The notes beneath the pieces are model-generated. The model was not told where the DNA came from. It searched no databases and saw only the letters and a program-made list of their open reading frames with translations. Source: Peristeroidobacter soli (GTDB taxonomy: Bacteria > Pseudomonadota > Gammaproteobacteria > Steroidobacterales > Steroidobacteraceae). From it: DNA of 64,000 bases. The stretch spans positions 124,001-188,000 of the forward strand of contig NZ_ML142848.1 of assembly GCF_004138485.1 (NCBI RefSeq), in the 5' to 3' direction. Numbering within the stretch: the first letter of the stretch is position 1; each line of letters begins with the position of its first letter. Shown here piece after piece: positions 7,991-54,621 of this stretch. A program made the translations under genes and the position numbers.

Positions 7991-9301
7991 TCAGTTCAAA
8001 CGATAACGGCGTAATAGCGCGAGGCTCATCGGCACCAACAGGGCGGGCGCAATCGCGAAGGCGATACGAATGCCTTCGAGCGCCTGTGCCGTCTGCGGAT
8101 ACTCGTCACGGCTCACGCCCCCGATGAAGCCACTCATCTGCAAGATCATGCCCGCGACCAGCGGCCCCATCGCAAGGCCGAGCTTCTCGGCGGCGACCCA
8201 CACGCCACAGATAAAACCCTCGCGACGCAACCCCGTCGTGTCCGTATCGTAGCGAATCACGTCGGTGAGCATGGCGAATGGCAGCACCTGCTGAGCCCCG
8301 AACCCCACACCAACCAAGCCGAGAAACGCCAGCAACGACACCACGGATTGCGCACTGCCGGTCAGCAGTCCGAGCGCGCCGCAAGCCAGCAGCAACATCG
8401 CGATGAAGTAAGTGTCGCGCTTGCCGAAGCGACGCGACAGGTAATTCCACAGCGGCAGACTGAGCACGGCCGCTCCCATCAACACCAATAGCATCTGCCC
8501 CACCAGCGTCTCGTCCGCACCCATGATATGAGCGGAAAAATACGGCGCGGACGCGATGAGAGTGGCGATGGCCACGATCTGAACCATATACGACGCCGCC
8601 AGCGTCACGAACGGACGATTGCGAAAGATCAATGAGAACTGCTCACGCATCGATGTAGTGTCCACGGGCGGCTCGGCCAGACGCAAACCGCGAGTCGCAC
8701 AATAGGCCCAGAACATCGCGACCGCAGTCGCGCCGCCGACGATCCACGACATCGCGGCATAGCCGGACCGCCCGCCACCAAAGCTTCCCACGAGCAGCGG
8801 CGCCACCGCCGAGCCGATCACTGCACCGATCAATGCGAAGCCCATGCGCCAGGAGACGATGCGAACACGCTCGGCCGGGTCGTCGCTCATCTCCGCCGGC
8901 ATGGCAACGTAGGGAATCGAGAACAGACTATAAGAGAACGAGCTCAGCGCGAACATGCCGGCCACGTACCAGAACGCCCCTGACGACGACACGGACGCGG
9001 GCACGTTGAACAGAAAGACATAGGTAAAGAACATCAGCAGCGCCCCTGCCAGCAAGTACGGACGCCGGCGACCGTAGCGACTGCGCGTGCGATCGGAAAC
9101 GAGACCGACAAACGGATCGGCGATCACATCGAGCGCCTTCGGCAGGAACACCGCGATCCCGGCCAGCGCCGCGGGCACGGCAAGCGTGTCCGTCAAGAAA
9201 TACAGAAGCAGCACGCCCGGCGTGGTCGAGAAGATCCCGGTGCCGAGCGAGCCGATTCCGTAGCCGATCAAAGTACGCGTCGGCAGTCGGGAGAGCGTCA
9301 T
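7991..9301 (-). CDS. MFS transporter of the GPH (MelB-like) symporter family
   Basis: The protein has about 12 hydrophobic segments over 436 residues. Its sequence resembles the glycoside-pentoside-hexuronide:cation symporters: LLYFLTDTLAVP near the start, KALDVIADPFVGLVSDRTRSRYGRRRPYLLAG in the first loop, and IPYVAMPAEMS. These place it in the inner membrane as a cation-coupled symporter. Its ATG overlaps the stop codon of the serine hydrolase gene (ATGA), indicating translational coupling. In this locus the substrate is more likely a peptide or acyl-amino-acid fragment than a sugar. The direction and substrate cannot be read from the sequence. Confidence 0.88.
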   Translation of the reverse strand: MTLSRLPTRTLIGYGIGSLGTGIFSTTPGVLLLYFLTDTLAVPAALAGIAVFLPKALDVIADPFVGLVSDRTRSRYGRRRPYLLAGALLMFFTYVFLFNVPASVSSSGAFWYVAGMFALSSFSYSLFSIPYVAMPAEMSDDPAERVRIVSWRMGFALIGAVIGSAVAPLLVGSFGGGRSGYAAMSWIVGGATAVAMFWAYCATRGLRLAEPPVDTTSMREQFSLIFRNRPFVTLAASYMVQIVAIATLIASAPYFSAHIMGADETLVGQMLLVLMGAAVLSLPLWNYLSRRFGKRDTYFIAMLLLACGALGLLTGSAQSVVSLLAFLGLVGVGFGAQQVLPFAMLTDVIRYDTDTTGLRREGFICGVWVAAEKLGLAMGPLVAGMILQMSGFIGGVSRDEYPQTAQALEGIRIAFAIAPALLVPMSLALLRRYRLN

Positions 9302-10734
9302 GGACGCGACGAGTCCACATGCTGTGCCGGCATTGAACTATTGAGCGAGTTCATGAAGACGCGCCTGGCGTGAGCACCGTTGCGCGCGTCCTCGAATACG
9401 AACTCCGACTCATCGTCGTTGCCAAACAGGAACCGGCCACCGCCCTGATGCAGCAGCGGCTGAAGATTCGTCGCTGCTGCTCCGTAGCCAAACATCAAAC
9501 GTCCGTCGCGGGCTTGAAACGTGACGGTGTCCACGCCGATACGATACGGCGCGAATCGATATTCGCCGGCATAGCGACTCAACTCCTTCGACGTCAGCTT
9601 TTCGTCGCGCACCGGCCGGGCCGGCAGACCGAGGACGATGCGTGCCACCTTGCGCTCCAGGCTCACCGCCGTCGGCTGTCCCTTGTTGTTCGTGAGGATG
9701 ACCACGGTCACGTCCTGCTGCGGGTAGTAGGCATGCGCGGCCGAATAGCCCCAGATCTCACCCGAATGCGCATACTTCGTCATGCCGTCGAAGTCGGAAC
9801 GGATCAGCGCTCCGAGCAGATATTGATTGGCACTGCCGTCGGCAAACGGCACGCCGCTCGTCATCAGCTCCCGCACCTTCGGACTCATCGCAGCCGACTT
9901 GAATGTGGCACGCCGGTAGTGAGCAACTTCCTCCGCCGTGGACAGCAGCGAGCCCGCCGAGAAAGGCACGAGGTAATACCACGGCGTGGCATGGATGAAT
10001 CCTTCGGGGCGCTTCTCATAGCCGATGGCGCGACGAGCAATCACCTGCCGATCGTCACCCGTATAGATTTGCTTGATGCCCAGCGGCGCGAGCACCGATT
10101 CACGCAGATAGTCGTAGTAGTCGCGGCCGCTCGCCGCCTCCACCAGCAGGCCGAGCAGGTAATAGCCCGAGTTCGAATAGCTCCATTGGGTACCCGGCGC
10201 GAACGCCAGCGGCCGGCTCTCGAACACCTTTCGCACCTCCGGGCGCTGCATTTCCGAACGCCGCAACTGTGGCGCGATGCCCGGAATTTCGTTCACATAG
10301 TTGGGAATGCCGGAGGTGTGGACCAGCAGCTGTCGCACCGTCGCGGCGCCCCCCGGGCCCTGATAGTCGGTCAGGTACTGACGAATCGGCGCATCCAGAT
10401 CCACCTTACCCTCGGCCACGAGCTGCAGGACTGCATGTGCCGTGAACGATTTCGTGATCGAACCGATCGCATAGACCGAATCAGCACGCGCAGCCACATC
10501 GTGTTCGAGATCGGTGACGCCGAAGCCCGCGGCATACGAAGTCGCGCCGCCTCTATCGACATAGATGCTGACCGCCGCCGTCCCCGAACGCGTCATGAAG
10601 TCTGCAGCCGCCGACGCAACTGCCGCGCGCTGCTCGGCGCTGAGCGAAACATCGCCAGGACCGTCCGCGTACAGAGGCCGCGCAACGAGCAACACCAGCA
10701 GCCAGCAGGCGCCGGCCAGAAAACGTTCAAACAT
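9298..10734 (-). CDS. Exported serine hydrolase of the class C beta-lactamase/DD-peptidase family
   Basis: The three active-site motifs of the fold are present: SITK (residues 92-95), YSN (186-188) and HSG (323-325). ATG at 10734 is chosen because it starts a signal peptide (MFERFLAGACWLLVLLVARPLYAD). It shares an A with the crotonase stop codon (TGATG). The C-terminal 120 residues form an extra beta domain (SRYAGEYRFAPYRIG...). The same architecture is found in the serine hydrolase at 61378-62757, so the two are paralogues. Family members act as D-aminopeptidases, esterases or DD-peptidases. In this locus a D-peptidase or esterase role on the imported acyl-peptide is the best guess. True beta-lactamase activity is not implied. 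Confidence 0.9.
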   Translation of the reverse strand: MFERFLAGACWLLVLLVARPLYADGPGDVSLSAEQRAAVASAAADFMTRSGTAAVSIYVDRGGATSYAAGFGVTDLEHDVAARADSVYAIGSITKSFTAHAVLQLVAEGKVDLDAPIRQYLTDYQGPGGAATVRQLLVHTSGIPNYVNEIPGIAPQLRRSEMQRPEVRKVFESRPLAFAPGTQWSYSNSGYYLLGLLVEAASGRDYYDYLRESVLAPLGIKQIYTGDDRQVIARRAIGYEKRPEGFIHATPWYYLVPFSAGSLLSTAEEVAHYRRATFKSAAMSPKVRELMTSGVPFADGSANQYLLGALIRSDFDGMTKYAHSGEIWGYSAAHAYYPQQDVTVVILTNNKGQPTAVSLERKVARIVLGLPARPVRDEKLTSKELSRYAGEYRFAPYRIGVDTVTFQARDGRLMFGYGAAATNLQPLLHQGGGRFLFGNDDESEFVFEDARNGAHARRVFMNSLNSSMPAQHVDSSRP

Positions 10735-17821: not shown

Positions 17822-20395
17822 TCAGAACTTGTACGAGACCCTGCCGTAGTAATAACCGCCGTTGATGCCGAACGGCGAGAACGACGGGTATTGCGAAACC
17901 GCACCGTTGTCGCCATCACGGAACTGCACGGCGCGATAGGCATCGTTACGTTTCTCAGGCATCTCATCGAACAGATTGACCGCGCCCAGAGTCAACGTGA
18001 GGCCCGCCATCGCTTCCAGCGAGACCTCCAGATTGGTGATCGGCGTGACCCCGATGGTGGTTTCATAGAACATGATCTGACCGTTGGTGGCACCGCCGTC
18101 GTTTTCGAATTGCGACGACTCGCCGTAGATCACCTCACGCAGACTCACGGTCAGCCGCTCCCATCGGAACGTGCCGCCCAGATTCAGCACATATTCCGGG
18201 ACGGTATCCTGCAGGTCCGACAGCGCCACCTTGTCGAACAACGCCTGCGAGGTGCCCAGCTGCGGCGGCGTTGCCCGAATGGAAGTCACGTCCGTCTTGT
18301 TGTAAGTCGCGGTGGCGTTCCAATCGACCTGCATCGGGCCGTACTCCGTCCGATAGTCGAACACGAGGTCCGCGCCGCGCGTTCGCGTGGTCACGCCGTT
18401 GGTGAACAGGTTGATGCCGGTGTCGCCGCTGGCCGTGACTTCGGGGTCGAGAATGTTGCCGTTGGCGATGATGGCGTCGACGATGGCCTGCGAGAACAGC
18501 TCGCCGTCGATCGTGCCGTAGAAAGTACTGGTGGCGGCGATACGGTTGCGCACCTCCACCTCATAAACATCGAAGGTCAGCGACATACTGTCCATCGGCC
18601 GCATGACGAAGCCGAAGGAATAGTTGGTCGATTTCTCCGGCTGCAGCCCCGCCCCGAGACCGAGCAGCGCCGTCGCCGGCGAGTTCGGCGGCATCTGCAC
18701 GAACGCCGTCGTCGGTCCGACGTTGGTCGCGGAGTAGTACGACTCCGCCAGTGTCGGAGCACGAAAGCCGGTGCTGAACGTGCTGCGCAATGCGAACGAA
18801 GGCGCGAAGTCATAACGCACCGTCGCCTTGCCGACCGAGGTGTCGCCGAAGTCACTGTAATCTTCGTAGCGCCCGGCGATTCCGACCCGCAATCCCTCCA
18901 TCGGCTGGAGCGAGAAATCGACATAGCCGGCGACGTTGTCGCGATCGTAACTGCCCGCATCCGACAGACCGATGCCGGGGAAGGATTGACCGCCCTCGAG
19001 ATAGCGCGAAGCCGCATCGCCGGGCGATGCCTCCCAGGTTTCCTTGCGATACTCCGCGCCAAACGCGAAGTTCAACGGCCCGGCCATGCCGAGATCGAAG
19101 GTCTTGACCATGTCGAGGCTCGTCGTCCACTGGGACGCCGTGTAAGTGCCGTCATAGAAATCGGTCGGCGTGGCGCCCGTGGCGGCGAAGAGAGAAGCAT
19201 TGGCGCTGTCTCGTGTGAACATGTCGATCTCGTCCTTGCCATAGGTGGACGCGAGATCCCAGCGCCATTCACCGACGCCGCCCTGAATGCCCGCCGTGAT
19301 CTGATAGTCCGTCTCCTCGATTTCTTCCCGCGGATCGAAGCCATAGGGATACAGGTAGGTCACTTCACCCGTGTCGGGATCCGTGTGTGAAACGCGACTC
19401 GGCAGCCGGTAGTTTTCATAGGAGCCCGCGTTCTTCTCTCCCCAGGTACCGAAGGCATAAACCTCCGTGCTCTCGCCCACCATGATCCCGCTGTTGAACG
19501 ACGCCAGCTTCATGTCGTATTCGGCATCGCCGAATATGTTGTTCAGGTACGGGTAACCCTTGGCAAACGGCATGTTGGTGTTCGGAAACGTGCCACCGCT
19601 CGCGGGGTCCACGTTCGCCGGATTCACGACACGCGGATCGATCCCGCCGCGATCGGTATGCGCATGCTGCCGCGTTTCGCCCGAGATATTCAGAAACGAA
19701 TCGTCCGTGGGCGCCAGTCCGATGCTCCCTGAAATCGAATCGGTATCGCCATCGCCGGCGTAGTAGCCGCCATGCGTATAGCTGATGCCGCTGCCCGAAT
19801 CGTCCTTCTTGAGCTTGATATTGATCACGCCCGCGATGGCATCGGTACCGTACTGGGCCGCCGCCCCTTCGGTCAGCACCTCCAGATGATCGATCGACTC
19901 CACCGGAATGAAATTCAGATCGACGCCGGCGCCGCCCTGGTAGGGTCCGCCGAGAACCGCCAGGCTTGCGGTGGTGTGGCGGCGCTTGCCGTTTACCAGC
20001 ACCAGCACGTGATTCGGACTCAAGCCACGCAGCTTGGCCTGCAATGTCTGATTGGCCATGTCGCCGCCAAACGCCTGCGCAGTGAACGATGGCACTGTAT
20101 TGGCGAGAGCATTCATCAGATCCGGCTTGCCGGCGGATTCCAGTGCCGCCGCGTCCAGAACCTGCACCGGCGAAGAGCTTTCGACGGCCTTCATTCCCGA
20201 GACGCGCGATCCTGTGACGACGATTTCTTCTACTTTGTGCTTCTCGTCCGCGGCACCATCCGCGAGCGCCTGTGACACAGCGAGGGACAGGAGGGTACCG
20301 GTCAGTGCGACCGTTTTCGAATTGATCTTGTTGGAAACAGAGCTATCTGGCCAGCGGTGCGCGGCGTTGCGCCCCTTCGAGTGATTCATGTTCAT
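17822..20395 (-). CDS. TonB-dependent receptor (no STN domain)
   Basis: The 857-residue outer-membrane receptor has an extended N-terminus with signal peptide (LTGTLLSLAVSQALA), a TonB box (VEEIVVTGSRVSG), a plug domain (LRGLSPNHVLVLVNGKRRH; VLTEGAAAQYGTDAIAGVINI) and a beta-barrel ending FGINGGYYYGRVSYKF. The start at 20395 is supported by a perfect GGAGGT ribosome site at 20402-20407. It converges on the amine oxidase/cytochrome/RidA unit and could import the substrate that unit oxidises (inference from adjacency only). The receptor type is common in polymer- and peptide-scavenging Proteobacteria, and the ligand is not predictable. Confidence 0.92.
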   Translation of the reverse strand: MNMNHSKGRNAAHRWPDSSVSNKINSKTVALTGTLLSLAVSQALADGAADEKHKVEEIVVTGSRVSGMKAVESSSPVQVLDAAALESAGKPDLMNALANTVPSFTAQAFGGDMANQTLQAKLRGLSPNHVLVLVNGKRRHTTASLAVLGGPYQGGAGVDLNFIPVESIDHLEVLTEGAAAQYGTDAIAGVINIKLKKDDSGSGISYTHGGYYAGDGDTDSISGSIGLAPTDDSFLNISGETRQHAHTDRGGIDPRVVNPANVDPASGGTFPNTNMPFAKGYPYLNNIFGDAEYDMKLASFNSGIMVGESTEVYAFGTWGEKNAGSYENYRLPSRVSHTDPDTGEVTYLYPYGFDPREEIEETDYQITAGIQGGVGEWRWDLASTYGKDEIDMFTRDSANASLFAATGATPTDFYDGTYTASQWTTSLDMVKTFDLGMAGPLNFAFGAEYRKETWEASPGDAASRYLEGGQSFPGIGLSDAGSYDRDNVAGYVDFSLQPMEGLRVGIAGRYEDYSDFGDTSVGKATVRYDFAPSFALRSTFSTGFRAPTLAESYYSATNVGPTTAFVQMPPNSPATALLGLGAGLQPEKSTNYSFGFVMRPMDSMSLTFDVYEVEVRNRIAATSTFYGTIDGELFSQAIVDAIIANGNILDPEVTASGDTGINLFTNGVTTRTRGADLVFDYRTEYGPMQVDWNATATYNKTDVTSIRATPPQLGTSQALFDKVALSDLQDTVPEYVLNLGGTFRWERLTVSLREVIYGESSQFENDGGATNGQIMFYETTIGVTPITNLEVSLEAMAGLTLTLGAVNLFDEMPEKRNDAYRAVQFRDGDNGAVSQYPSFSPFGINGGYYYGRVSYKF

Positions 20396-20780: not shown

Positions 20781-22847
20781 CTATCGGGCCGAGCTCAGCT
20801 GCTGCTGACGCAAGGCACGCCAGCGCTGATATTGATCGGCCTTGTCCTTTGCCGAATCTTCCTTATCGTTGAGCCAGAAGTTGAACCAGTCGATGGTGCG
20901 TTCGGCCACGGCCAGCTTGTGTTGCGGCTGCCATTTGATGTGATACTCGCCTGGAAACACATAGGTCTCGACCGGCTTGTTGGCATCCTTCAATGCCACA
21001 TAAGTCGGCAGCCCCATCAGCAGTTCGCTGTCCGCCACCTGAATCAGCACGGGCGCACGAACCTTGTCCGCGTTGAAGGCCAGCGACATGGGCTGCCAAC
21101 GTTCCATCAGCTGCTGGGGACTGGTCGCCTGTAACATCGAGTACAGGAACTCTCGCATCCAGGAATTCACGGACAGCTGATAGACATACGGCGACCAGCT
21201 GCCGCTGTGCGCCACGGCGGCGAAACGATTCGAGTTGAACAACGCGAACTCGACGGTTTCCGCGCCGTCGCTCAGGCCGGTGAGACCGACACGTGACGCA
21301 TCGATGATGCCGCGCTCGGACAGTTTGTCGATGACGATCTCCAAGGCCGTCAGCGCGGTCTTGCGCTCACGCGCATCCTCCCATTCCCTGGCCTCGGACT
21401 GACCGACCTTTTTCGGTTCGAATTTCTTCATCGCCCCCCAGTCTTCCGGCCGGTCGAAGCTGAGCACGGCGAATCCCGCGGCAGCCAGCGGATAAATGGG
21501 ATATTCCTCGCCTACTCCACCGCGCAGAAAGCCCTTCGATCGATACTGCACGATCACCAGCGGCAGACGCTTGCCCTGCGGATGATTCGGCGGCAACACC
21601 AGGTGACCGAAGGTCGGGTTGCCGTAGGCGTCGTGCCATTCGATTTTTTCGACGCTGCCGAGCTCGAATGCAGCCAATCCCGGGTTCGGATCGAACACCG
21701 TTTGCAGTTTTCCATCGCGCAACGAGATCGATACGAGCTTGCGTGGCGTCGTCGCCGTCTCGTGCAGACAAACGGCACGACCGCTTCTCACATCGCAGGC
21801 GTCGATGACGCCGTCGAGGTGATAGATCCGTCGCACTTTGCTCGCACCCGGGCGCCATGCCGACAACGTCAGTTCACTGTACGCGTGCCCTTCACGATTC
21901 AGCAGGATGATTTCGTCGCCGTGCCACCAGAACGCCTTCAGCTGCCCATGACATTCCGGCGCACCACAACGCTTGCCATCGGCGAACAGGGTCAGCTCGG
22001 CCGCGAAGCCCGGGCTTTCGACCGGAGTCTCGTTCTCGAACCAGGCGAAACGCTTGCCCGATGCATCCGGTGTCACCTTCTGAATGACCCGCTCGGACGC
22101 CACGCCAGGAGGACGGATCGCCGGCTGCTTTGAGGTTGCGGTATCGAGGCGCTCTTGCTTGCTGGCAACATCGACGACCCACGCCGTCGGCGTGCACTTC
22201 TGCGATGCCGGCTGTGGGACGTCCCAGCCATCTTCAGTACACGCAAACCACAATGGCACATTACTGTTGTCGGGCACCCAGCGATCGTCGAGCAGGATGC
22301 CGCGATCGCCTTCCTCCTGCTCGGTGCGAGCCATCATGGAGCGATCGCGCCCCACCTTGAACTCGATGGCCTGGCCGTCCGCGCTCCAGTTGAAGTCGAG
22401 CACATCGGCTGGGTTGTGCGTGACCTGCTCCTGCAGAGACCCATCCGCGCGACTGCGCCACACTTGCACGTGACTATTGTCCTTGCGCAGATACGCGACC
22501 CACTGACCATCGGGAGACCACTTCCCCACAGGCGTTGCGCGCGAGCCGTTGATGCGACCGAGCGGGCTCGGATTCAACATCACCTCACCCCCCGCGCCGA
22601 TATGCACCGGCGCGGCGCCGTTGACGGCCGCTACGTACCAATCGAGCTTATAAGTCCGCGCGGCGAAGTCTGCCTGCTGAATTTGAATCGCGACCGACTG
22701 CCCATCCGGCGACAGCGCCAGCGCTCCGTTGTAACCCCCGATCTGCTTCATCGACAGCAAGTCGGCCGAGGTGAATGGCTGTTTCGCCGCCGCCGCATGA
22801 CTGGCAACGATGGCCACCCACAGAATCGAACACTTCATCGAACGCAT
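20781..22847 (-). CDS. S9 peptidase, lasso-peptide-isopeptidase-like (Atxe2-type)
   Basis: This is a prolyl-oligopeptidase-family enzyme: signal peptide, a beta-propeller over about residues 25-400 (repeated SPDGQ motifs), then a C-terminal alpha/beta hydrolase domain. The nucleophile serine is in TGLSDGAE (S526), with E608 (VADSELLMG) and H636 (GEYHIKWQP) as the likely partners. The C-terminal signature DWFNFWLNDKED...DQYQRW is what I associate with Atxe2-type lasso-peptide isopeptidases, which open the isopeptide ring of threaded peptides. It is the last gene of the FecI-FecR-TonB operon, 3 bp after a second related S9 gene. No lasso biosynthesis genes are present. A general oligopeptidase role remains possible. 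Confidence 0.78.
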   Translation of the reverse strand: MRSMKCSILWVAIVASHAAAAKQPFTSADLLSMKQIGGYNGALALSPDGQSVAIQIQQADFAARTYKLDWYVAAVNGAAPVHIGAGGEVMLNPSPLGRINGSRATPVGKWSPDGQWVAYLRKDNSHVQVWRSRADGSLQEQVTHNPADVLDFNWSADGQAIEFKVGRDRSMMARTEQEEGDRGILLDDRWVPDNSNVPLWFACTEDGWDVPQPASQKCTPTAWVVDVASKQERLDTATSKQPAIRPPGVASERVIQKVTPDASGKRFAWFENETPVESPGFAAELTLFADGKRCGAPECHGQLKAFWWHGDEIILLNREGHAYSELTLSAWRPGASKVRRIYHLDGVIDACDVRSGRAVCLHETATTPRKLVSISLRDGKLQTVFDPNPGLAAFELGSVEKIEWHDAYGNPTFGHLVLPPNHPQGKRLPLVIVQYRSKGFLRGGVGEEYPIYPLAAAGFAVLSFDRPEDWGAMKKFEPKKVGQSEAREWEDARERKTALTALEIVIDKLSERGIIDASRVGLTGLSDGAETVEFALFNSNRFAAVAHSGSWSPYVYQLSVNSWMREFLYSMLQATSPQQLMERWQPMSLAFNADKVRAPVLIQVADSELLMGLPTYVALKDANKPVETYVFPGEYHIKWQPQHKLAVAERTIDWFNFWLNDKEDSAKDKADQYQRWRALRQQQLSSAR

Positions 22848-22850
22848 GCC

Positions 22851-25067
22851 TCAGCTCCCGGAATTCTGATTCTTGGCGCGCCACTCGCGGGCCATTGCAT
22901 CCCACCGTGCGTATTGATCGCTCTTGTCCGGCGACGCATCGCGCTTGCCGATCAGCCAATAGTTGAACCAGTCGAAGCTGCGATTCATGGCCGCCGCGCG
23001 CCGCTGCGGGTGCCAGAAGATGTGCGACTCGTCGGGAAAGAACACGAACTCGTTCGGGACCTTTGCCAGACGCAGCATCATGTGCAGCTCCAGCCCGAAC
23101 ATCGACGAGCGCGCCGCCGACTGCTGCAGCATGGCGCCGGAGAATTGATCGACACGAAACACCGCCGAATGTTTACGGTAGTTCTCGACCGCGCGCGGGT
23201 CGTATGGCGAGCCGCCAAACATGCCCTGATACAAACCCACATAGTTGTCGGTGCCGCCCGCCCAGTAGCCGGAAGGCATCCAACCGCCCGCGTCGCCGTT
23301 GGCGCCCGCTTTGAACAGCTTCGAGTGGCTCATTGCGTACTCGACCACTTCGCAGCCGCGGCTGTAGCCCGCGATGCCTGCCTGATTCGCATCGACGATG
23401 CCCGCATCGGCTGCCCACTGCACCGCTGCCTCGATACCCTCCAACGGCTCGACGTTCTTATAGAACTGCATCGCTTCGACGTTGGCATCGCCGCCATCGG
23501 TGTGCAGGAACTTGTCGCGGGACTGGCGTGTACGGGCGTTGCTGATTGGATCGTTCACCGAGAGCACGACATAACCCGACTCCGCGAACACTTGCACCGG
23601 CGCCTCCGCCTGGAAGCCGTAGTAAGCGAAGCGATTGCGCGCATCGCCGCCATGGGTGACGACCATGACGGGATATTTCTTGCCACTCACAAAGTTGCGA
23701 GGATAGGTGACGTAGCCGTCGCTCACGCCACCGGACTTGCCCGTCCATTCACGACGCTCGCTCTTCAGCGGCTCGATCTCTTCGAGCGCGGCGTTGGGCT
23801 TCGCGATGGTTTTGACTTCGCCTCGGCTCGGCGACACCGCGACCAGCTGTTGTGGCTCAGTGAGCGATTCGCGAACGCATGCGCCGTATTCGAGATTCTG
23901 GCTGAACACGCAGTTGGAGAAATGATCCCGCCGCTGCGACCACTTCGAATTCGCCGCCACGTTGGGAAACAGCACCAGGCCATCGTGATCTCGATAAGTC
24001 ACGCCGAGCACGGCGCGGTCGCCAGCGGCATTCCACGAGGAACCTACGCGGCTGCTGAGCCGCGAGTAGTCCACCGGTCCATGATCCTTCAACACCTTGC
24101 CGGACACGTCCAGATGAACGAGCCGCTTGCCGTTCGCCTCGTCTCTGACCGTGACGAAGCTTTGCCCATTCGGCAGCGGCGAGGCATACAGCGCTTCCAA
24201 CGCCGCGGCATTCGGAACGCGCTCCACCTTGCCGCTGGCAAGATCGATTGCCATGCGAACGAAGTCGCGCCGGCCGCCATTGGTGCTCTCCGAATCGGAG
24301 TACTGCAAACGCTTGCCATCGCTGGACCAGGCCACCGAATCGCGGGAGAAGCGCAGGAAATCGTCCATGGCGCTGGCAGGCACATGGGCCAGCAAGCGAT
24401 CTTCCGTCGGCCGCCACAATCGCAGCTCGGTGCCGTCCATCGCGCTCATGTCCTTGCCGAACGCCAGGCTCGTCATGGTCGCGGAGTTGTAGACCACGCC
24501 GGCGTTGGTGACGGCCTGCTGCTCGGCGGGCGATCTGAGTCGCAGCTTCGCATACCACAGCGCCGAGCCATCGGGCGACCAGGCATAGGAAACGACGCCG
24601 GTCTGACGCGACTCGTCATGCGCGCTTTGTAACATTCCGCCGAAGCCACCGACGGGCGCGGTTCGCTCGGTCACGATGAGCGGTCGGGTCCCGCCCCGGT
24701 CATCGATCTCATAGAGCTGGACGCCTTGGCCCAGATCCGCGCGAACCGTCCACCGATCGGTGCCGGGGCGTGGCGAAACATCGTCCATGTAGGCCGTGTC
24801 CAGAATCTTTCGCGCGGCCGAGCTGCCATCGGCCGGCACGACGTAGAGACTGAAACGAGTGTCGCCCCGCTCCACCGAGCTTTGTCTGAACACGAACGCC
24901 ACCCGCCGCCGTTGCTCGTCCAGCGTGGTGCTCGTGATCTGACCGGTCTCGACGATGTCACGGATCGTCCAGCTCCTCGTGCCGCCCGCAGGGCCTGCCG
25001 CGTGGCCGGAACCGACGACAAAAACCGAGCACAGCGCCACCATCCAGGCGCAGCGATTTGCTTGCAT
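22851..25067 (-). CDS. S9 peptidase, second lasso-isopeptidase-like paralogue
   Basis: This is a diverged paralogue of the downstream gene, with signal peptide (MQANRCAWMVALCSVFVVGSGHA), beta-propeller and hydrolase domain. The nucleophile motif is AGYSRGCE (S569). H682 lies in PDESHIFWHP, and an acidic residue in SMFGLELHMM (E660) is the likely third member. The C-terminus FDWFNYWLIGKRD...DQYARWDAM repeats the isopeptidase-type ending. It is 738 residues against 688 for its neighbour. A GAGGA ribosome site precedes ATG 25067, which lies 28 bp after the TonB receptor stop. Two tandem enzymes with different nucleophile contexts suggest different substrates or successive steps. Confidence 0.76.
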   Translation of the reverse strand: MQANRCAWMVALCSVFVVGSGHAAGPAGGTRSWTIRDIVETGQITSTTLDEQRRRVAFVFRQSSVERGDTRFSLYVVPADGSSAARKILDTAYMDDVSPRPGTDRWTVRADLGQGVQLYEIDDRGGTRPLIVTERTAPVGGFGGMLQSAHDESRQTGVVSYAWSPDGSALWYAKLRLRSPAEQQAVTNAGVVYNSATMTSLAFGKDMSAMDGTELRLWRPTEDRLLAHVPASAMDDFLRFSRDSVAWSSDGKRLQYSDSESTNGGRRDFVRMAIDLASGKVERVPNAAALEALYASPLPNGQSFVTVRDEANGKRLVHLDVSGKVLKDHGPVDYSRLSSRVGSSWNAAGDRAVLGVTYRDHDGLVLFPNVAANSKWSQRRDHFSNCVFSQNLEYGACVRESLTEPQQLVAVSPSRGEVKTIAKPNAALEEIEPLKSERREWTGKSGGVSDGYVTYPRNFVSGKKYPVMVVTHGGDARNRFAYYGFQAEAPVQVFAESGYVVLSVNDPISNARTRQSRDKFLHTDGGDANVEAMQFYKNVEPLEGIEAAVQWAADAGIVDANQAGIAGYSRGCEVVEYAMSHSKLFKAGANGDAGGWMPSGYWAGGTDNYVGLYQGMFGGSPYDPRAVENYRKHSAVFRVDQFSGAMLQQSAARSSMFGLELHMMLRLAKVPNEFVFFPDESHIFWHPQRRAAAMNRSFDWFNYWLIGKRDASPDKSDQYARWDAMAREWRAKNQNSGS

Positions 25068-25095
25068 GGGAAAGTCCTCGAAGAAGAGCGGCCGG

Positions 25096-28000
25096 TTAGA
25101 GCTTCAGCCCGGCCTGGAGATAGATGAATCGACCGCGGATGTCGTACTGCGTCGGGTCGTAACCCACCGAGCCACGGTTATAGGAATAGTCGGGCAGACG
25201 GTTGAACAGGTTCACCGCGCCGACCGTCACGTAGGCCTGCTCCATGACGGAACCGGACCAGCCCAGCGCCTTGCCCACTTGCAGCTTGGCGTTGATATCG
25301 AACACGGCGAAGTCGCCGAGCTTGCGCTTGGACGGATCGTAATCCTCGTACTCACCGACGTAGCGAGCCACCAGCGTCGCCTGCAGCAGCGACGTGTTCC
25401 AGCCAAGCGATGCCGAACCTTTCCAGTTGGGCGCAAAGAAGCTGGCGGTCGCTTTACCCGCCCGATTCTGCACCGGCACGCCGGGCACCAGCCCGGTGTC
25501 GTACTTATATATGTAGGACGCGGACACGCTGGGCACGAACTCGCCCAGGCGCGTACGCACACGCCAGCTTGCCCCAGTATCCACACCCGCCAGATCGAAC
25601 GTGCCGAAGTTCAGATAGATGTTGCGGAACTCCGTGATGCGACCGGGGTAGCCGTTGGCAATGTCCTGCGGCGTCGGCTGTGAGCGTACGACATAGCCGG
25701 GGAACAGTTCTTCATTGGCAATGACCACGCTCTGGTTGAGCAGGTTCGCGTAGTTCTCGATCTTGGTGGTCCAATGCGTCGCCAGCAGCTCGAATCCCGG
25801 TAACGCCGCCGGCGTGAATACGAAGCCCGCGCTGGTGGAGTAACCGGTCATCGCGTCCAGATCGGGATTGCCGCCCGTGTAGTACCTCGCGGCGTAAGCT
25901 TCGTTGCCGCGACGGCTGTCAGTCAGTGTCGATTGGGTCGAGACCGTCGGCGAGAACAGCTGATACAACCGCGGCGGCTTGTACGCCTCGCTATACGCCG
26001 CTCGCAACAGCAGCGACTCGTGGGGCCGCACTTCGACACCGAATTGCGTCGACAGCTCACTGCCGAAGTCGCTGTAGTCGTCGAAGCGAACCGCGCCGGT
26101 CAATGCGAGCCGGGCCGCGTTGCCGCCTTCGCCCGGTCCGATCAACGGCACGCGCACTTCGCTGAACAGCGCATAGTTGTCGCGGTCACCGCCGAAGGTG
26201 GTGATGTAGTAGTTGTAGAACAGCTTGCTACGCTCGACCTCCGCGCCGAACGACGCTTGAACCGCACCGGCACCGAAGTCGAACAACGGCCCGCTGATGA
26301 ATCCCGTGACCGAAGTGAGATCCGAGGTCAGCTCGTTGACCAGCGTCATCAAGCCATACGGCTTCAGTTCATCCAGGGTCCAGTGACGATCGGAGAAAAC
26401 ATTCAGCGCGGTGGCCGGATTGGAATCGGCCAGCGCCTCCGCGAAGCGCGGCTCCGCGTTGGGGTCGAACACCGGGCCTTCATCGGTCGTGTCCTTGCCC
26501 TTGGTATAGGTCCCCGCCACTTCCCAGCGCCATGCGCCGATGTCGCCACGCAGGCCCAGCGCCGCGCGACCGTACTCCTGCTTCAAGCAGTAGCAAAAGC
26601 CCTCGTCGGTACGAAACACGTGATCGACGCCGATATCCACGCCGAACGGATTGAAGGCGTTCGAGGCCGGCACCCGATAGGCTTGATGCATGAAGATCGG
26701 ATAGTCCATTTCCTCCGACTCGTAGCGGGAATACATCGCCTCGCCGAACAGCTCCACGTTGGGTGTCACGTCGAATGTTCCATACAGCATCGCGCTGGTC
26801 GACTCCGTGGCGGGAATCACCGAGGAGTAGCGATAGAAGCCCATGTCCCGCTGCAACGTTCCCGCGGTGGCGGCGAAATCGGCCGGCGTCAAGCCAATGC
26901 CATCGGTGCCCACCGGAATCGCGGCAAAGCGCGAGTTCAGGCCCGGCAGATTGGAGCCGTCGCGTGAATAAACATTGCCCGGCATGCCATAGGTCACGGC
27001 ATAAACGTGACCGCCATAGCGCGAGTAATCCGTGTCCGCTGTGATCGCGCGCTCCGAGCCCCACAATACGGAGTTCTTGGAATACGACCCCATGAATGAC
27101 AGCGAGCCGCGTGAGAATGTCTTGCCCATCGCGAAGCTGAATCGCTGCTCATCGTAGCCATCGGCACTGCCATAGCGCGCATCGACTTCGGCGCCATCGA
27201 AATCTGTCTTGAGAATGATGTTGACGACGCCTGCGAGCGCATCGCCGCCGTAGATCGCGGACGATCCCGAAGGCAACAGCTCGATACGCTCCACCGCGGA
27301 CAGCGGCAGAACGTTGAGATTGGTGATGCCGCTGCTCGCTTGAAACGGCGTGCCGGCCAAGCGGCGACCATTCAGCAACACCAGCGCCGTTCCGGACGGC
27401 AAGCCACGCAGTTGCACGGTCTGGCTGCCGCGTCCAGATTGAAACGGCGCCGTGGTCGATTGCACCGACACCTCGGGCATTTGATTGAGCGCCTGCGCCA
27501 CACTCGTCGCGCCGCTGCTGTCGATCTCCGCACGACTCATGATTTTCACGGGCACCGGTTGTTGCTGACGTGTCGTCGACAGACGCGAACCGGTAACGAC
27601 CAGCTCTTCCACTTCGCTGTAGCGCGGACTGTTCGTCTCCTGCTTACCGCTGGCGCTCTGCCTGGCCTCGGAGGAGAACTCCGCCTGTGCAATCCGCAGA
27701 CGCTGCCAGACCGTCGGCGACTCGACCGGCGCATCCTCGGGCGCGCTCAGCGACAGGAAGGAGATCTGATCGGGCAGCATGCCCGTGCTCGGCAACTCGA
27801 TCTGCGTCGGGGCCGGCACGATGGTGATGGTCTTGTCATCGACCTTGCGATGAACCAGCCCGGTGCCCCGTAACAACTCGGTCAGCGCTTCTTCAGGCGT
27901 CAGATCGCCGGCGATGCCCGACGTGTTCAAGCCACGCACGAACTCGGGACGATAGACGATCTGAAAATCGCGCTGCTTGGCGAGGGTCTGCAACGCCGGC

Positions 28001-28113
28001 CCCAATCCCTGCGCTGGAATGTGAGTCGACTTGCGAATCGCCGCCTCGACGTCCGAGGCCAGCGACAAACCCACCGAGGAAACACAGATCGCCGCAACAA
28101 TGGCTGCACGCAT
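25096..28113 (-). CDS. TonB-dependent receptor with N-terminal STN (signal-transducing) domain
   Basis: After a signal peptide (MRAAIVAAICVSSVGLSLA), residues about 25-100 form a secretin/TonB N-terminal (STN) domain (IPAQGLGPALQTLAKQRDFQIVY), which touches the FecR anti-sigma when the ligand binds. Plug (VEELVVTGSRLSTTRQQQPVPVKI) and barrel follow, ending FIYLQAGLKL. ATG at 28113 is chosen over starts at 28242 and 28179 because it follows GGGGAG and opens the signal peptide. That leaves a 121-bp gap after fecR, which carries its own promoter element (28188-28218). The cotranscribed S9 peptidases suggest that the ligand is a peptide, perhaps a lasso peptide. Confidence 0.92.
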   Translation of the reverse strand: MRAAIVAAICVSSVGLSLASDVEAAIRKSTHIPAQGLGPALQTLAKQRDFQIVYRPEFVRGLNTSGIAGDLTPEEALTELLRGTGLVHRKVDDKTITIVPAPTQIELPSTGMLPDQISFLSLSAPEDAPVESPTVWQRLRIAQAEFSSEARQSASGKQETNSPRYSEVEELVVTGSRLSTTRQQQPVPVKIMSRAEIDSSGATSVAQALNQMPEVSVQSTTAPFQSGRGSQTVQLRGLPSGTALVLLNGRRLAGTPFQASSGITNLNVLPLSAVERIELLPSGSSAIYGGDALAGVVNIILKTDFDGAEVDARYGSADGYDEQRFSFAMGKTFSRGSLSFMGSYSKNSVLWGSERAITADTDYSRYGGHVYAVTYGMPGNVYSRDGSNLPGLNSRFAAIPVGTDGIGLTPADFAATAGTLQRDMGFYRYSSVIPATESTSAMLYGTFDVTPNVELFGEAMYSRYESEEMDYPIFMHQAYRVPASNAFNPFGVDIGVDHVFRTDEGFCYCLKQEYGRAALGLRGDIGAWRWEVAGTYTKGKDTTDEGPVFDPNAEPRFAEALADSNPATALNVFSDRHWTLDELKPYGLMTLVNELTSDLTSVTGFISGPLFDFGAGAVQASFGAEVERSKLFYNYYITTFGGDRDNYALFSEVRVPLIGPGEGGNAARLALTGAVRFDDYSDFGSELSTQFGVEVRPHESLLLRAAYSEAYKPPRLYQLFSPTVSTQSTLTDSRRGNEAYAARYYTGGNPDLDAMTGYSTSAGFVFTPAALPGFELLATHWTTKIENYANLLNQSVVIANEELFPGYVVRSQPTPQDIANGYPGRITEFRNIYLNFGTFDLAGVDTGASWRVRTRLGEFVPSVSASYIYKYDTGLVPGVPVQNRAGKATASFFAPNWKGSASLGWNTSLLQATLVARYVGEYEDYDPSKRKLGDFAVFDINAKLQVGKALGWSGSVMEQAYVTVGAVNLFNRLPDYSYNRGSVGYDPTQYDIRGRFIYLQAGLKL

Positions 28114-28187
28114 GAACACTACTCCCCTGCCTCTGTGGAGGCTTGTTGTGACTGCCGTCGCAGTCGACGACAGTTTCATGGCGCCCT

Positions 28188-28218
28188 TAGAACGGACGCA
28201 GGGGAAAAGTGGATACCT
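28188..28218 (-). promoter_or_regulatory. Predicted ECF-sigma promoter of the TonB receptor / S9 peptidase genes
   Basis: On the minus strand the -35-like block is AGGTATCCACTTTTC and the -10-like block is CGTTCTA, spanning 31 bp. A nearly identical element with the same spacing precedes the sigma gene (29846-29876). Such a pair is the expected signature of an autoregulated FecI-type system. The ATG lies about 75 bp downstream. Confidence 0.7.
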
Positions 28219-28234
28219 GAATTTTCGCTCGCGC

Positions 28235-29263
28235 TCATTCACGGCGCGAGATGCGGATCTCCGTATCCGTTTCCTGCACTTGGAAGTCCGGCTGTTGCCG
28301 CAGGAAGCTCAGCAACGAGGCGGGTTCCGTGGAAGAAAACACGCCGCTGATCAGAAATCCTTTCAATGCAGCGTCGCGAATGACCAGTTGTCGCAAGTTA
28401 TATCGATTGAATTCGTCGGCCACCTCGGCGAGAGTCGCGGCATCGAATACGAGTTGACGCTGCGTCCACGCCGTGGCGGCGGCAACGTTCGTGCCCTCGG
28501 GATGATTGATTCGATCGGCCACCACGATGACCTGCTCGCCCGCGCCGAGCGAGCTGACCGAATCGACGCTGCGTTCCACGGCGCCAGCGGAGCCGGCTCG
28601 CACTTCCACCTTGCCTTCGAGCACAGTGACCAGGGTGCCACTGGAGCGACGATACACATCGAACTGGGTCCCGACGGCGCGAACGCGCGTGTGACCGCTA
28701 TGGACGATGAACGGTCGCAGCGGATTCTTCGCCACTTGGAACATTCCTTGACCTTCCAGCAGCTCGACCAGGCGCTCCTGCTCGGAGAAGCGCACGCGAA
28801 TGCGAGAGCGTGCGTTCAATTCGACGCGCGAGCCATCGCTCAGAGTCAGCAAGCGCTGTTCGCCGATGCCCGTCGTATAAGTCAGCGCCTGCGTGCCCTG
28901 CCACCAAACGATGGCGACGGAGATGCAGACAATGGCAACGCAAGCAGCGAGACGTTGAGGCCAACCGATTCGTCGAGCCTGGGGCTTGCTTGGAACGCTC
29001 GGCGCGGCGGGGGTCCCCGCCAGCGTCACCACATTGCTCGATAGCTCAGCGGACGCGATCAAAGCGTCGATGTCGACGCGTCGTTGCGCATCCAAGGCGG
29101 CGGCATCGGTCCATACAGTGGACAGCTCGAGGTACGCGCGCACGTGCGCGGGAGACTTGGCGATCCATGCCGCGAACTCCGCCCGCTCCTCCGCATCGCC
29201 GCCACCATCGCGCAGGGTCACGAGCCACTCGGCCGCCTCCTCCTGGATTCGTGAGTCGCTCAT
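28235..29263 (-). CDS. FecR-family anti-sigma factor/sensor
   Basis: The N-terminal cytoplasmic region (EEAAEWLVTLRDGGGDAEERAEFAAWIAKSPAHVRAYLE) is the FecR DUF4880-type domain that binds the sigma factor. A membrane segment follows near residues 100-118 (LAACVAIVCISVAIVWW), then the periplasmic FecR domain (GEQRLLTLSDGSRVELNARSR) and a C-terminal STN-like segment. ATG at 29263 overlaps the sigma-factor stop (ATGA), so the two are coupled. It transmits ligand occupancy of the adjacent receptor to the sigma factor. Confidence 0.92.
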   Translation of the reverse strand: MSDSRIQEEAAEWLVTLRDGGGDAEERAEFAAWIAKSPAHVRAYLELSTVWTDAAALDAQRRVDIDALIASAELSSNVVTLAGTPAAPSVPSKPQARRIGWPQRLAACVAIVCISVAIVWWQGTQALTYTTGIGEQRLLTLSDGSRVELNARSRIRVRFSEQERLVELLEGQGMFQVAKNPLRPFIVHSGHTRVRAVGTQFDVYRRSSGTLVTVLEGKVEVRAGSAGAVERSVDSVSSLGAGEQVIVVADRINHPEGTNVAAATAWTQRQLVFDAATLAEVADEFNRYNLRQLVIRDAALKGFLISGVFSSTEPASLLSFLRQQPDFQVQETDTEIRISRRE

Positions 29264-29799
29264 TGATTCGCCTGCTCCCGTTCCCGCGCCCGTTCGAGGC
29301 GGCGCTGGCAATGGACCAGCGCGCGCGCGAGATACTTCTTGGCCATGGCGCGGGAAACGCCCAGCCGCTCGGCGACTTCTTCCAACGTGTAACCGTCCCG
29401 TCGATGCAACAACAACGCCGCCTGGGCCTTGGCGGGCAGCTTCTCCATCGCCTGCTCCAGATCCTGGACCCGTTGCTGACGCTCGACCTGTTCGGCCGGA
29501 TCGTGCTCGGCGACGGTACGCAGCTCGGTGAAGATCTCGCCGAGATCGACGATCACCGGCGCGGCCGTCTGCCGCAGGGTGTGCTCGTTCAAGAGGTGGC
29601 TCGCGACCGTGAACATGTACGCTTCCGGATTACGGATCAGCTCGTGCTTGTCGACCCGAAGCAGCCGCAAGTACACCTCCTGTGCCAGATCCGGTGCATC
29701 GCCGGCATTGCGCAGCCGGGCCGCCAGAAAGCGCTGCAGCCGCCGGCCGTACTGGACGGCAACGTCGGCCACGAACGATTTCCTGCGGTCGCTATTGTG
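29260..29799 (-). CDS. ECF RNA polymerase sigma factor, FecI type
   Basis: The protein has region 2 (YGRRLQRFLAARLRNAGDAPDLAQEVYLRLL) and region 4 (LEQAMEKLPAKAQAALLLHRRDGYTLEEVAERLGVS) of ECF sigma factors, about 180 residues. A TTG start at 29799 is preferred because GGTGGGG precedes it and because the predicted promoter at 29846-29876 would leave only about 14 bases before the alternative GTG at 29826. It heads the operon sigma-FecR-TonB-S9-S9 and probably transcribes both its own gene and the receptor gene. Confidence 0.88.
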   Translation of the reverse strand, partial: HNSDRRKSFVADVAVQYGRRLQRFLAARLRNAGDAPDLAQEVYLRLLRVDKHELIRNPEAYMFTVASHLLNEHTLRQTAAPVIVDLGEIFTELRTVAEHDPAEQVERQQRVQDLEQAMEKLPAKAQAALLLHRRDGYTLEEVAERLGVSRAMAKKYLARALVHCQRRLERAREREQANQ

Positions 29800-29845
29800 C
29801 AAACCCCACCCCGCCTGCGACCGCACGAAGGACGGTCCGGGGCTA

Positions 29846-29876
29846 TAGAACAGGGAACGGCGAAAAGTGGCTACCT
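29846..29876 (-). promoter_or_regulatory. Predicted autoregulated ECF-sigma promoter of the sigma gene
   Basis: On the minus strand AGGTAGCCACTTTTC (the -35 side) and TGTTCTA (the -10 side) span 31 bp, matching the receptor promoter element at 28188-28218 in both blocks and exact spacing. The match covers 15 near-identical bases on the -35 side, which is unlikely by chance in unrelated intergenic DNA. Confidence 0.7.
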
Positions 29877-29957
29877 TTATTTTGCAGGCCGGGCTGGGCC
29901 CCTATAGACTCTCACTACGGTTACCACCTACTAAAAACTAGAAGTCCCAGCCCAGTC

Positions 29958-44324: not shown

Positions 44325-44370
44325 CCGTTCTCCCCTGCTGCTTTTTGTCCGGCGGATTTGCCAACGCAGC

Positions 44371-44401
44371 TATGACGAGCGACCGTCAGATTTTTGAACC
44401 T
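44371..44401 (-). promoter_or_regulatory. Candidate ECF-sigma promoter of the second STN receptor
   Basis: On the minus strand AGGTTC and CGTCATA are spaced exactly as AGGTAT and CGTTCTA are in the receptor promoter at 28188-28218 (31 bp overall). The interior differs, consistent with a related but distinct sigma factor (the one at 45353-45913). The match is weaker than between the two elements of the first system. Confidence 0.45.
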
Positions 44402-44420
44402 CGGTGCGGCAAAGAAAGTT

Positions 44421-45356
44421 CTAGCGCGAGCTGAGGACGATCTCGCCATCGTCGACACGCCGCACGCTGACCGGATAGGCGGCCTCGATACCCGCGAGCC
44501 AATCCTCCAGCGAGGCGGCGAACGCCGTGCCCGTGAACGGCAGTGACGCGATCTCGGGATCGTCGATCACGATCTTGTGCTCGGAGTAGCGGTTCAGATC
44601 CTCGATGACCGAACCCAGCGGCTCACGAACATACGCCAGCTCGCCACTGCGCCAGGCCAACGCCACCGCTGGATTCACTGTCGCAATGGACGCGGTCCGG
44701 CGTCGATTGGAATAACGCAGCTGATAGCCGGCGGCGGCGCGCCACGTTTCCCGATCGCCCGCCACTTCGACGATGCCTTCCTCGACGGTGACGACGATGT
44801 CATCGTCCTGGCGGCGCACGTCGAACGCCGTGCCGACCGCGGTCACGCTGACCGCACCCGCCTGCACGACGAACGGCCGCAGCCGATCGTGCTTCACCTT
44901 GAAATACGCTTCGCCCGAGGACAGATCGAGCTTGCGGGTCGGGCCGCTGAAATCGAGGTTCACCAGGCTTTGCGCGCCCAGAATCATCTTCGAGCCATCC
45001 GGCAAGGTGGCCGCACGGTTGCTCACGGCAGCCGTGACGACTGCAGATGATGGGGATTGCATCTGGACAATCGAGAATGTCAGCGCCACCGCCGCCACGC
45101 CCGCCGCCAAGGCCCACGCGACTCTCGAGCGACGCACCGGTTTGACGACCGGCAGCTGCTTGAGCGCGTCCAGATCCTGCCAGTCCCGCTGCAAAGCTTC
45201 GTAAGCCGCAAGATTCCGGTCGTCGGCATGACACCAGCGCAACCACTCCTCCACATCCGCTTCGGTGTGAGTGGCACTGTTGAGTCGAAGCAGCCAGTCG
45301 CCCGCTTCCTCCAACCGCCGCAGCTCATCGGGCTGTATCGTTTGCTGCGTGCTCAT
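44421..45356 (-). CDS. FecR-family anti-sigma factor/sensor
   Basis: The layout is FecR-like: an N-terminal sigma-binding region (EEAGDWLLRLNSATHTEADVEEWLRWCHADDRNLAAYE), a membrane segment near residues 82-98 (WALAAGVAAVALTFSIV), the periplasmic FecR domain (SNRAATLPDGSKMILGAQSLV) and a C-terminal segment resembling STN (GSVIEDLNRYSEHKIVID). At 311 residues it is of normal size. Its ATG overlaps the sigma gene stop. It should sense the STN receptor encoded 96 bp downstream. Confidence 0.92.
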   Translation of the reverse strand: MSTQQTIQPDELRRLEEAGDWLLRLNSATHTEADVEEWLRWCHADDRNLAAYEALQRDWQDLDALKQLPVVKPVRRSRVAWALAAGVAAVALTFSIVQMQSPSSAVVTAAVSNRAATLPDGSKMILGAQSLVNLDFSGPTRKLDLSSGEAYFKVKHDRLRPFVVQAGAVSVTAVGTAFDVRRQDDDIVVTVEEGIVEVAGDRETWRAAAGYQLRYSNRRRTASIATVNPAVALAWRSGELAYVREPLGSVIEDLNRYSEHKIVIDDPEIASLPFTGTAFAASLEDWLAGIEAAYPVSVRRVDDGEIVLSSR

Positions 45357-45913
45357 GCCTTGAGCAACTCCCTGGCCTGCGCGATCGAGTGGCCTTCCCG
45401 CCGCAACCGGATATAGATCAGCGCGCGCGTGATGAACTTACGCACCATGCGCTCGGAGATCCCCATGCGGATGGCGACCTCCTCCAGAGGCCGATCCTCG
45501 AGCTTGTGGAGCCGGAACGCTTCCCGACACCGGTCGGGCAATTCGTCAACCGCGTCACGAAGCAATTGCAACTCCTGCTGTGCGATCGCGGCTCGCTCGG
45601 CGCGCGGCTCTTCGCAGAAATCATCGAGCGAGCCCAGTCGATCCACGCGTGAACGCGAGCGCCGCTGGCGCAATCGATCGACCGCCAGGTTCTCCGCGAT
45701 CCGAAACAAATAGGCGCGCAGATAACTGACGGCCCCTTGCGCGGTATCCAGCTGCAACAGCTTGACGTACGCTTCCTGGGCGACTTCCTTCGCCTCCTGT
45801 TCGTTCTTCAGTCGGCCCACGAGCAGGCCGACCAGCATACGATTGTGCTCGCGAAACAAACGCGCCACATGGGAGCCGCGTTCGTCTTCGGTTGGCAACT
45901 CGTCGAGTTTCAT
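45353..45913 (-). CDS. ECF RNA polymerase sigma factor, FecI type
   Basis: Region 2 (LFREHNRMLVGLLVGRLKNEQEAKEVAQEAYVKLLQL) and region 4 (AVDELPDRCREAFRLHKLEDRPLEEVAIRMGIS) of ECF sigma factors are clear; the protein has 186 residues. It is unusual in that it is embedded in a longer run: its ATG overlaps the stop of an S9 peptidase gene upstream (4-bp overlap) and its stop overlaps the FecR start. It should direct transcription of the STN receptor, probably from the element at 44371-44401. Confidence 0.92.
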   Translation of the reverse strand: MKLDELPTEDERGSHVARLFREHNRMLVGLLVGRLKNEQEAKEVAQEAYVKLLQLDTAQGAVSYLRAYLFRIAENLAVDRLRQRRSRSRVDRLGSLDDFCEEPRAERAAIAQQELQLLRDAVDELPDRCREAFRLHKLEDRPLEEVAIRMGISERMVRKFITRALIYIRLRREGHSIAQARELLKA

Positions 45914-48069: not shown

Positions 48070-48073
48070 CGGC

Positions 48074-52173: not shown

Positions 52174-52175
52174 GC

Positions 52176-54527: not shown

Positions 54528-54621
54528 GCCTTATAAGAATGTGGGCGCTGACCGTTTCGCGCTCCCCTGCAAGGACAGACGACGGTTTTCAGAAAACCCT
54601 CAAGGCAGACGGATGAATTTT

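Follow-up and report, generated by a model that had tools for sequence, protein, structure and literature searches.

A putative lasso-peptide receiver operon of Peristeroidobacter soli with two types of isopeptidase and no lasso biosynthesis genes detected beside it

A stretch of 64,000 nucleotides from the genome of Peristeroidobacter soli (contig NZ_ML142848.1, positions 124,001 to 188,000; the whole stretch is referred to here as the window) was found to contain a tight operon of five genes on the minus strand, at 20781–29826. A FecI-type extracytoplasmic function (ECF) sigma factor, a FecR-type signal transducer and a TonB-dependent receptor (TBDR) with an STN domain are followed by two S9 peptidases, here called isoP2 and isoP1. 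Judged by sequence, these peptidases represent both of the structurally known families of lasso-peptide isopeptidase, in tandem behind one receptor. The interpretation given somewhat better than even standing is that the operon constitutes a FecI/FecR-regulated receiver module, which imports and linearises lasso peptides, probably mostly of foreign origin. An external lasso peptide would bind the STN-TonB receptor, and the receptor would then signal via FecR to FecI and induce the operon; TonB-driven import would deliver the peptide to the periplasm, where one or both of the two secreted isopeptidases would break the isopeptide bond in threaded peptides. Once linear, the peptide and any cargo would be exposed to ordinary peptidases. 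What was observed comprises the gene layout, the family placements, the catalytic positions, the fold of isoP1 and the conservation of the unit; the ligand and substrate, signalling, periplasmic site, cleavage and foreign origin are inferred.

The operon and its two peptidases

The sequence-only reading of this locus had described a FecI-FecR-STN receptor system with two S9 peptidases, and both the open reading frames (ORFs) and the Pfam domains agreed with this. It had placed the operon at 20781–29799; the start was correct, while the other end extends to about 29826. The FecI-type sigma factor (29260–29826, minus strand, as are all five genes) has Pfam domains Sigma70_r2/r4 and an uncertain start codon; its best NCBIfam models, PRK12527 and FecI NF041727, both scored under their cut-offs. 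The FecR-type anti-sigma factor or signal transducer (28235–29311) combines FecR PF04773 with DUF4880. The receptor (25096–28242) consists of an N-terminal STN signalling domain, a plug and a barrel, and is probably an outer-membrane lasso-peptide receptor. The presence of an ECF sigma factor, FecR and an STN-bearing TonB receptor in one operon, as seen from Pfam and the gene overlaps, is the layout of FecI-FecR-STN cell-surface signalling. The remaining genes are isoP2 (22851–25067) and isoP1 (20781–22847), both with a Pfam Peptidase_S9 domain, a Sec-like signal peptide at the N-terminus (recognised by eye, with no predictor) and the C-terminal tail DWFN..W..QY.RW, which had also been read correctly before. 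Neighbouring genes in the operon either overlap or are separated by just 3 or 28 bp, a spacing that points to one transcript for all five. A second TonB receptor downstream (17822–20395) was considered as a member of the module and rejected, being outside the conserved unit described below and on a long, distant branch of the receptor tree.

Several methods were applied to the classification of isoP1. Against the NF033523 model it scored 662 bits, where the curated cut-off is 400; the same model produced matches in 11 of 14 control genomes, none of them over the cut-off. The predicted structure of isoP1 had AtxE2 (5txc/5txe) as its top match by both Foldseek and VIA, with 35–37% identity in the structural alignments. 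In a careful phylogeny of 34 rows, with five ordinary S9 peptidases from the same genome as outgroup, isoP1 fell among the 22 rows of the AtxE2 clade (bootstrap 100); a quick tree of 64 rows concurred on the placement of the isopeptidases. The residues S526, E608 and H636 were invariant in all seven AtxE2-type members from this genome and aligned with AtxE2, and the serine at the catalytic position is the residue mutated in 5txe (S527A). AtxE2-type enzymes possess a glutamate at the site of the usual S9 aspartate (E608 in isoP1); in AtxE2 itself, E610 is presumably the catalytic acid. Therefore, by score, residues, fold and clade, isoP1 was classified as a putative AtxE2-type lasso isopeptidase, for which cleavage of the isopeptide bond is predicted.

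The second peptidase was different. isoP2 scored 209.5 bits against NF033523, i.e., under the cut-off of 400, but this bars it from the AtxE2 family only, because the SpI-type enzymes L122 and L123, which are borne by lasso clusters, miss the cut-off too (164.8 and 161.3 bits respectively). In the PDB, isoP2 matched SpI-IsoP, the sphingopyxin I isopeptidase (5jrk, E = 1.3e-77), as isoP1 had matched AtxE2 (5txc, E = 1.5e-116); because of these values, chance resemblance can be excluded for both. In the 34-row tree, isoP2 belonged to a clade of six rows (bootstrap 100) that comprised 5jrk, L122, L123, own_L021, the enzyme of locus L040 and isoP2 itself, which was the sister branch to the remaining SpI-IsoP clade; the plasmid members of this clade adjoin lasso C and B genes. 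At the usual S9 site, isoP2 and the SpI-type enzymes lack an acidic residue; a Glu or Asp occurs instead approximately six residues later and may be the catalytic acid of SpI-type enzymes. This second place is also Glu in some AtxE2-type enzymes. The sequence-only reading had considered both peptidases to be AtxE2-like, and this was upheld for isoP1 by its score, fold and clade. For isoP2 it was rejected, given a score under the NF033523 cut-off and a position in the SpI clade. By its clade, isoP2 is interpreted as an SpI-IsoP-type isopeptidase, predicted to cleave threaded lasso peptides. That the pair stand apart from ordinary S9 peptidases was confirmed by the trees, where both grouped with characterised lasso isopeptidases, and by the fold match of isoP1. 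Separately, lasso clusters of other Steroidobacter genomes (L136, L137, L146 and L147) carried an S9 peptidase that belongs to neither the AtxE2 nor the SpI type and forms a third clade, with an SpI-like shifted acid; this is possibly a third isopeptidase family.

Lasso biosynthesis genes and isopeptidase numbers

Hidden Markov models (HMMs) for the lasso B and C proteins were built from loci in this genome and from fetched loci, and applied to 27 loci, the window among them, each translated from stop to stop in six frames. Matches were obtained for the clusters L025, L027, L124, L125 and L126 only. There was no match at E ≤ 10 in the six frames of the whole window, and a decayed lasso cluster in the flanks was rejected on this basis. 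The first precursor motif applied had two matches in the window, inside or antisense to long ORFs; its requirement for ET ahead of the cleavage site would exclude the precursor of G043 discussed below (ELTK). A looser rule had no matches in the window; as 45 of 64 control clusters yielded a candidate close to lasB under this rule, a divergent precursor may yet be present in the window. Small ORFs in the two gaps flanking the operon had no precursor motif when inspected by eye. With these searches, no lasso biosynthesis gene was detected in the locus, which supported the earlier statement to that extent.

A related expectation, that no complete lasso genes would accompany a different isopeptidase elsewhere in the genome, proved wrong. 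The genome (9.37 Mb in 17 contigs; listed completeness 100%, listed contamination 4%) contains two lasso clusters. L025 is canonical and includes an isopeptidase; L027 has FecI, FecR and TonB receptor genes and no isopeptidase beside it. With two clusters, the cell itself is likely to be a lasso producer. Cleavage of the precursor candidates in these clusters (L025:14208–14300, with a very short leader, and L027:11880–12047) after ET(R/K) would give core peptides that start with Asp or Glu, unlike the usual Gly. L027 and its relatives L129, L130, L133 and L135 represent one cluster type from five Steroidobacter genomes, with FecR and STN-TBDR genes and without an adjacent isopeptidase. Their lasB genes are 82–94% identical, and their precursors read IE(L/V)LDLGDA..ET(K/R) ahead of a core that contains YP or WP, FDS or YDS, and LLGE, with some variation.

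The presence of these clusters raises the prospect that the operon is an in-trans housekeeping system, re-importing and linearising the cell's own lasso peptides, above all that of L027, which has no isopeptidase of its own nearby. Steroidobacter MAG-237 could be understood in the same way, as its two B genes and two AtxE2-type isopeptidases each lie on a contig of their own. This explanation was considered unlikely on three grounds. The L027-type cluster never had an isopeptidase beside it in the examined stretch of any of its five genomes; in three of these five (G106, G115 and G074), the sole AtxE2-type enzyme was that of the L025 type, and the isoP1 clade was not represented; and a single isopeptidase-less cluster is insufficient to account for six unlinked AtxE2-type enzymes, given that L025 has its own.

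These enzymes emerged from a search of the whole genome with NF033523, which gave 113 matches, 7 of them over the cut-off. One adjoins a lasso cluster and six do not; FecI, FecR and TBDR genes are present around all six. Two further unlinked enzymes, isoP2 and own_L021, were SpI-type according to the tree. In a sample of 120 genomes from the same family, five had an AtxE2-type match, seven enzymes being found in this genome and one in each of the four others; three of those single enzymes adjoin a B gene, and the fourth belongs to a cluster split across two overlapping contigs. Of the 14 genomes of the genus examined, five had a match (7, 2, 1, 1 and 1 enzymes). Among 79 sampled genomes of a sphingomonad family, there were matches in six, with seven enzymes in total and no more than two per genome; six of the seven had a B gene at most 5 kb away, while the seventh was 2.7 kb from a contig end. 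The highest count outside this genome was three, in a Kordiimonadaceae metagenome-assembled genome (MAG), and therefore the isopeptidase excess is not unique to Steroidobacter. In that MAG (NORP235), the AtxE2-type isopeptidases L042, L045 and L049 occupy three contigs and one lasso B gene occupies a fourth; in L049, a precursor-like ORF and the isopeptidase gene point directly at each other near the contig end.

Linkage between isopeptidases and lasso clusters was examined more widely for the best 80 of 357 AtxE2-type relatives from a scan of the genome collection, with flanks of up to 10 kb; a locus was called unlinked only if it had at least 6 kb of sequence on both sides. Of these best 80 loci, 67 had lasso B or C, six had neither and seven were undecidable. 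The tandem of both isopeptidase types occurred at one of them (L040). Two of the six loci with neither gene were rejected as examples of orphans, since lasC was located approximately 10 kb downstream of L088, and B and C approximately 22 kb from L053 on the same contig. For the other four (L040, L041, L056 and L084), no lasso B match was found on their contigs, those of L041 and L056 ending approximately 9 kb downstream.

Conservation and ancestry of the five-gene unit

Locus L040 comes from Steroidobacter MAG-237 (the same sequence as G121), and its gene order, FecI-FecR-TBDR-isoP2-isoP1, is identical to that of the window. Between the two, blastn gave one long match only, spanning 9,121 columns with 79.4% identity (window 20809–29883, minus strand); it covers the operon and approximately 57 bp upstream of fecI. 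The only other matches were 69 and 61 columns long and elsewhere in the window, and the flanks of L040 (about 3 kb and 10 kb) had no match at the DNA level to the window flanks. Identity with the L040 proteins was 90% for FecI, 80% for FecR and 85% for the TBDR. The pairwise ratio of nonsynonymous to synonymous substitution (dN/dS, NG86) was 0.13 for isoP1, 0.15 for isoP2, 0.13 for the TBDR, 0.17 for FecR and 0.08 for FecI, with dS between 0.68 and 1.06. These low ratios, together with the non-matching flanks, indicate that the five-gene unit has been kept by selection, and that either the unit or its surroundings have moved. It is very improbable, therefore, that the operon is one half left over from a decayed lasso cluster and now without a role; the cluster-borne enzyme in the isoP1 clade and the failure to find B, C or A in the window would be expected of such a remnant, but the five genes are intact, their dN/dS is 0.08–0.17, and the unit persists in MAG-237 despite its unmatched flanks.

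The isoP1 clade contained five rows (bootstrap 100): isoP1, its L040 ortholog, the pair of own_L019 and L041, and the enzyme of G043, which is 48% identical to isoP1. Two contigs of G043 (L127 and L132) share an overlap of 197 identical bp inside the isopeptidase gene, from which it follows that this gene faces lasC and lasB. The ORF directly upstream of lasB ends MDSVKFFDMGAASELTK-GLSGNNYEGDEQQQ; it is plausibly a precursor with the core GLSGNNYEGDEQQQ and an 8-residue ring from G1 to E8, and offers the best available hint to the substrate of isoP1. Since the G043 enzyme, from the same clade as isoP1, is part of a lasso cluster, it would seem that the receiver half and the producer half have come apart.

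The history of the receptor was not the same. The window receptor belonged to a Steroidobacter clade of 11 rows, along with the receptors of the isopeptidase-less L027-type cluster. Co-inheritance of receptor and isoP1 was not supported, given that the window receptor and the receptor of the G043 cluster fell in different clades, and the module is a mosaic in which receptor ancestry does not follow isoP1. At another locus in this genome (own_L018), the enzyme was placed among sphingomonad and caulobacter cluster members and the receptor among sphingomonad receptors, as if this receiver half had been acquired whole.

Function and comparison with known systems

The substrates of the operon are probably derived mostly from other bacteria, because no maker adjoins it and because isopeptidases far outnumber lasso clusters. 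A source in other cells had been proposed from the sequence; with L025 and L027 in the genome, this becomes one of two live readings. Several observations weigh against the receiver interpretation. In the available part of a 2022 review, AtxE1, AtxE2 and SpI-IsoP are described as cutting only the peptide of their own cluster among those tested, and a chimera bearing the matching loop was cut also (PMC9266682); for this reason, a cluster-less isopeptidase has no predicted substrate. Lasso B matches number two in the whole genome, both on contig C2, and all 10 distinct genomes with a seemingly B/C-less isopeptidase locus had a lasso B gene somewhere, which would equally suit the in-trans explanation. 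The looser precursor rule misses about three in ten. isoP2 is approximately 32% identical to SpI-IsoP, and its top Foldseek matches, 5jrk and 5jrl, were obtained from a poor model (mean predicted local distance difference test score, pLDDT, of 61.7). Finally, the window receptor is 27.5% identical to that of G043, and its clade includes a receptor beside a non-isopeptidase S9 peptidase (own_L024).

The last of these observations is compatible also with general peptide scavenging, whereby enzymes derived from isopeptidases now trim other imported peptides. Such modules are common in this genome: FecI, FecR, TBDR and S9-like ORFs were present in 16 of 19 stretches, a non-random set chosen for S9 or lasso-gene matches, and the window itself pairs FecR and an STN-TBDR with an ordinary DPPIV-like S9 peptidase at 41.3–48.1 kb. 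However, isoP1 retains the AtxE2-type Glu and isoP2 the SpI-type shifted acid, fold matches and trees favour isopeptidases, and AtxE2 requires the threaded form of its substrate, unthreaded astexin-2 not being cut according to the same part of the review (PMC9266682). Scavenging was considered doubtful on this evidence. This region (41340–48108), with a DPPIV-like peptidase that scores 101 bits on Pfam Peptidase_S9, is a non-isopeptidase counterpart of similar layout, and at 50485–55683 a further FecR and STN-TonB receptor pair adjoins a protein with a beta-lactamase fold (PF00144). Elsewhere in the window, AT skew at 8001–10000 was 0.246, well above the remainder.

Returning to the receiver interpretation, a bolder form of it is offered tentatively, as somewhat less probable than not: six AtxE2-type and probably two SpI-type unlinked enzymes would make up a receiver-only battery for lasso piracy, each tuned to the peptides of neighbours, with the window operon serving two peptide classes. 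In that case lasso peptides would belong to the community, to be shared or stolen, and, wherever the substrates are foreign, would join siderophores as pirated molecules. A conserved, maker-less receiver unit separates uptake and cutting from peptide making, and consequently its inducer, substrate and gain can be tested alone; the tandem of both structurally known families lends itself naturally to comparing, side by side, two ways of carrying out the same reaction. What goes beyond the sequence-only reading is that the isopeptidases are of two families, that the genome as a whole has an excess of them and that the unit is conserved, while the likelihood that the cell is itself a lasso producer makes the case less clean.

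The isopeptidase clusters known at the time of the review were of near-constant architecture throughout, according to its available part, and so an isopeptidase without a cluster is unexpected; the same source regards the biological role of isopeptidase-containing lasso peptides as enigmatic (PMC9266682). Metanodin, a lasso peptide from an uncultivated member of the Steroidobacterales, has an isopeptidase gene in its cluster, as stated in the part of that report available (PMC12670498). A limited search of the literature, with sources available in part, found no description of an isopeptidase locus that lacks biosynthesis genes; it is not claimed that none has been published.

Among known systems, AtxE2 of Asticcacaulis excentricus (5txc, 5txe) and the NF033523 family are the closest to isoP1, which has the same fold, Ser-Glu-His residues, clade and C-terminal tail; members of the family have FecI-FecR-TBDR neighbours, as isoP1 does. 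In contrast to AtxE2, no lasso A, B or C was found beside isoP1, and a member of a second isopeptidase family stands between it and the receptor. SpI-IsoP (5jrk, 5jrl) is the best match to isoP2 in sequence and, with the poor model, in fold, and is alike in clade and shifted acid, but isoP2 has no lasso cluster beside it. Proteobacterial lasso clusters with isopeptidases are arranged as FecI-FecR-TBDR-isopeptidase converging on C-B-A, and the order of their receiver half is the same as in the window, which differs in having no detected producer half and two isopeptidase families in tandem. Xenosiderophore receptors with FecI/FecR-type cell-surface signalling are likewise receiver genes without matching biosynthesis, and occur in several copies. 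This resemblance is an analogy only, since the ligand in the window would be a threaded peptide, and the operon includes dedicated enzymes for its cleavage.

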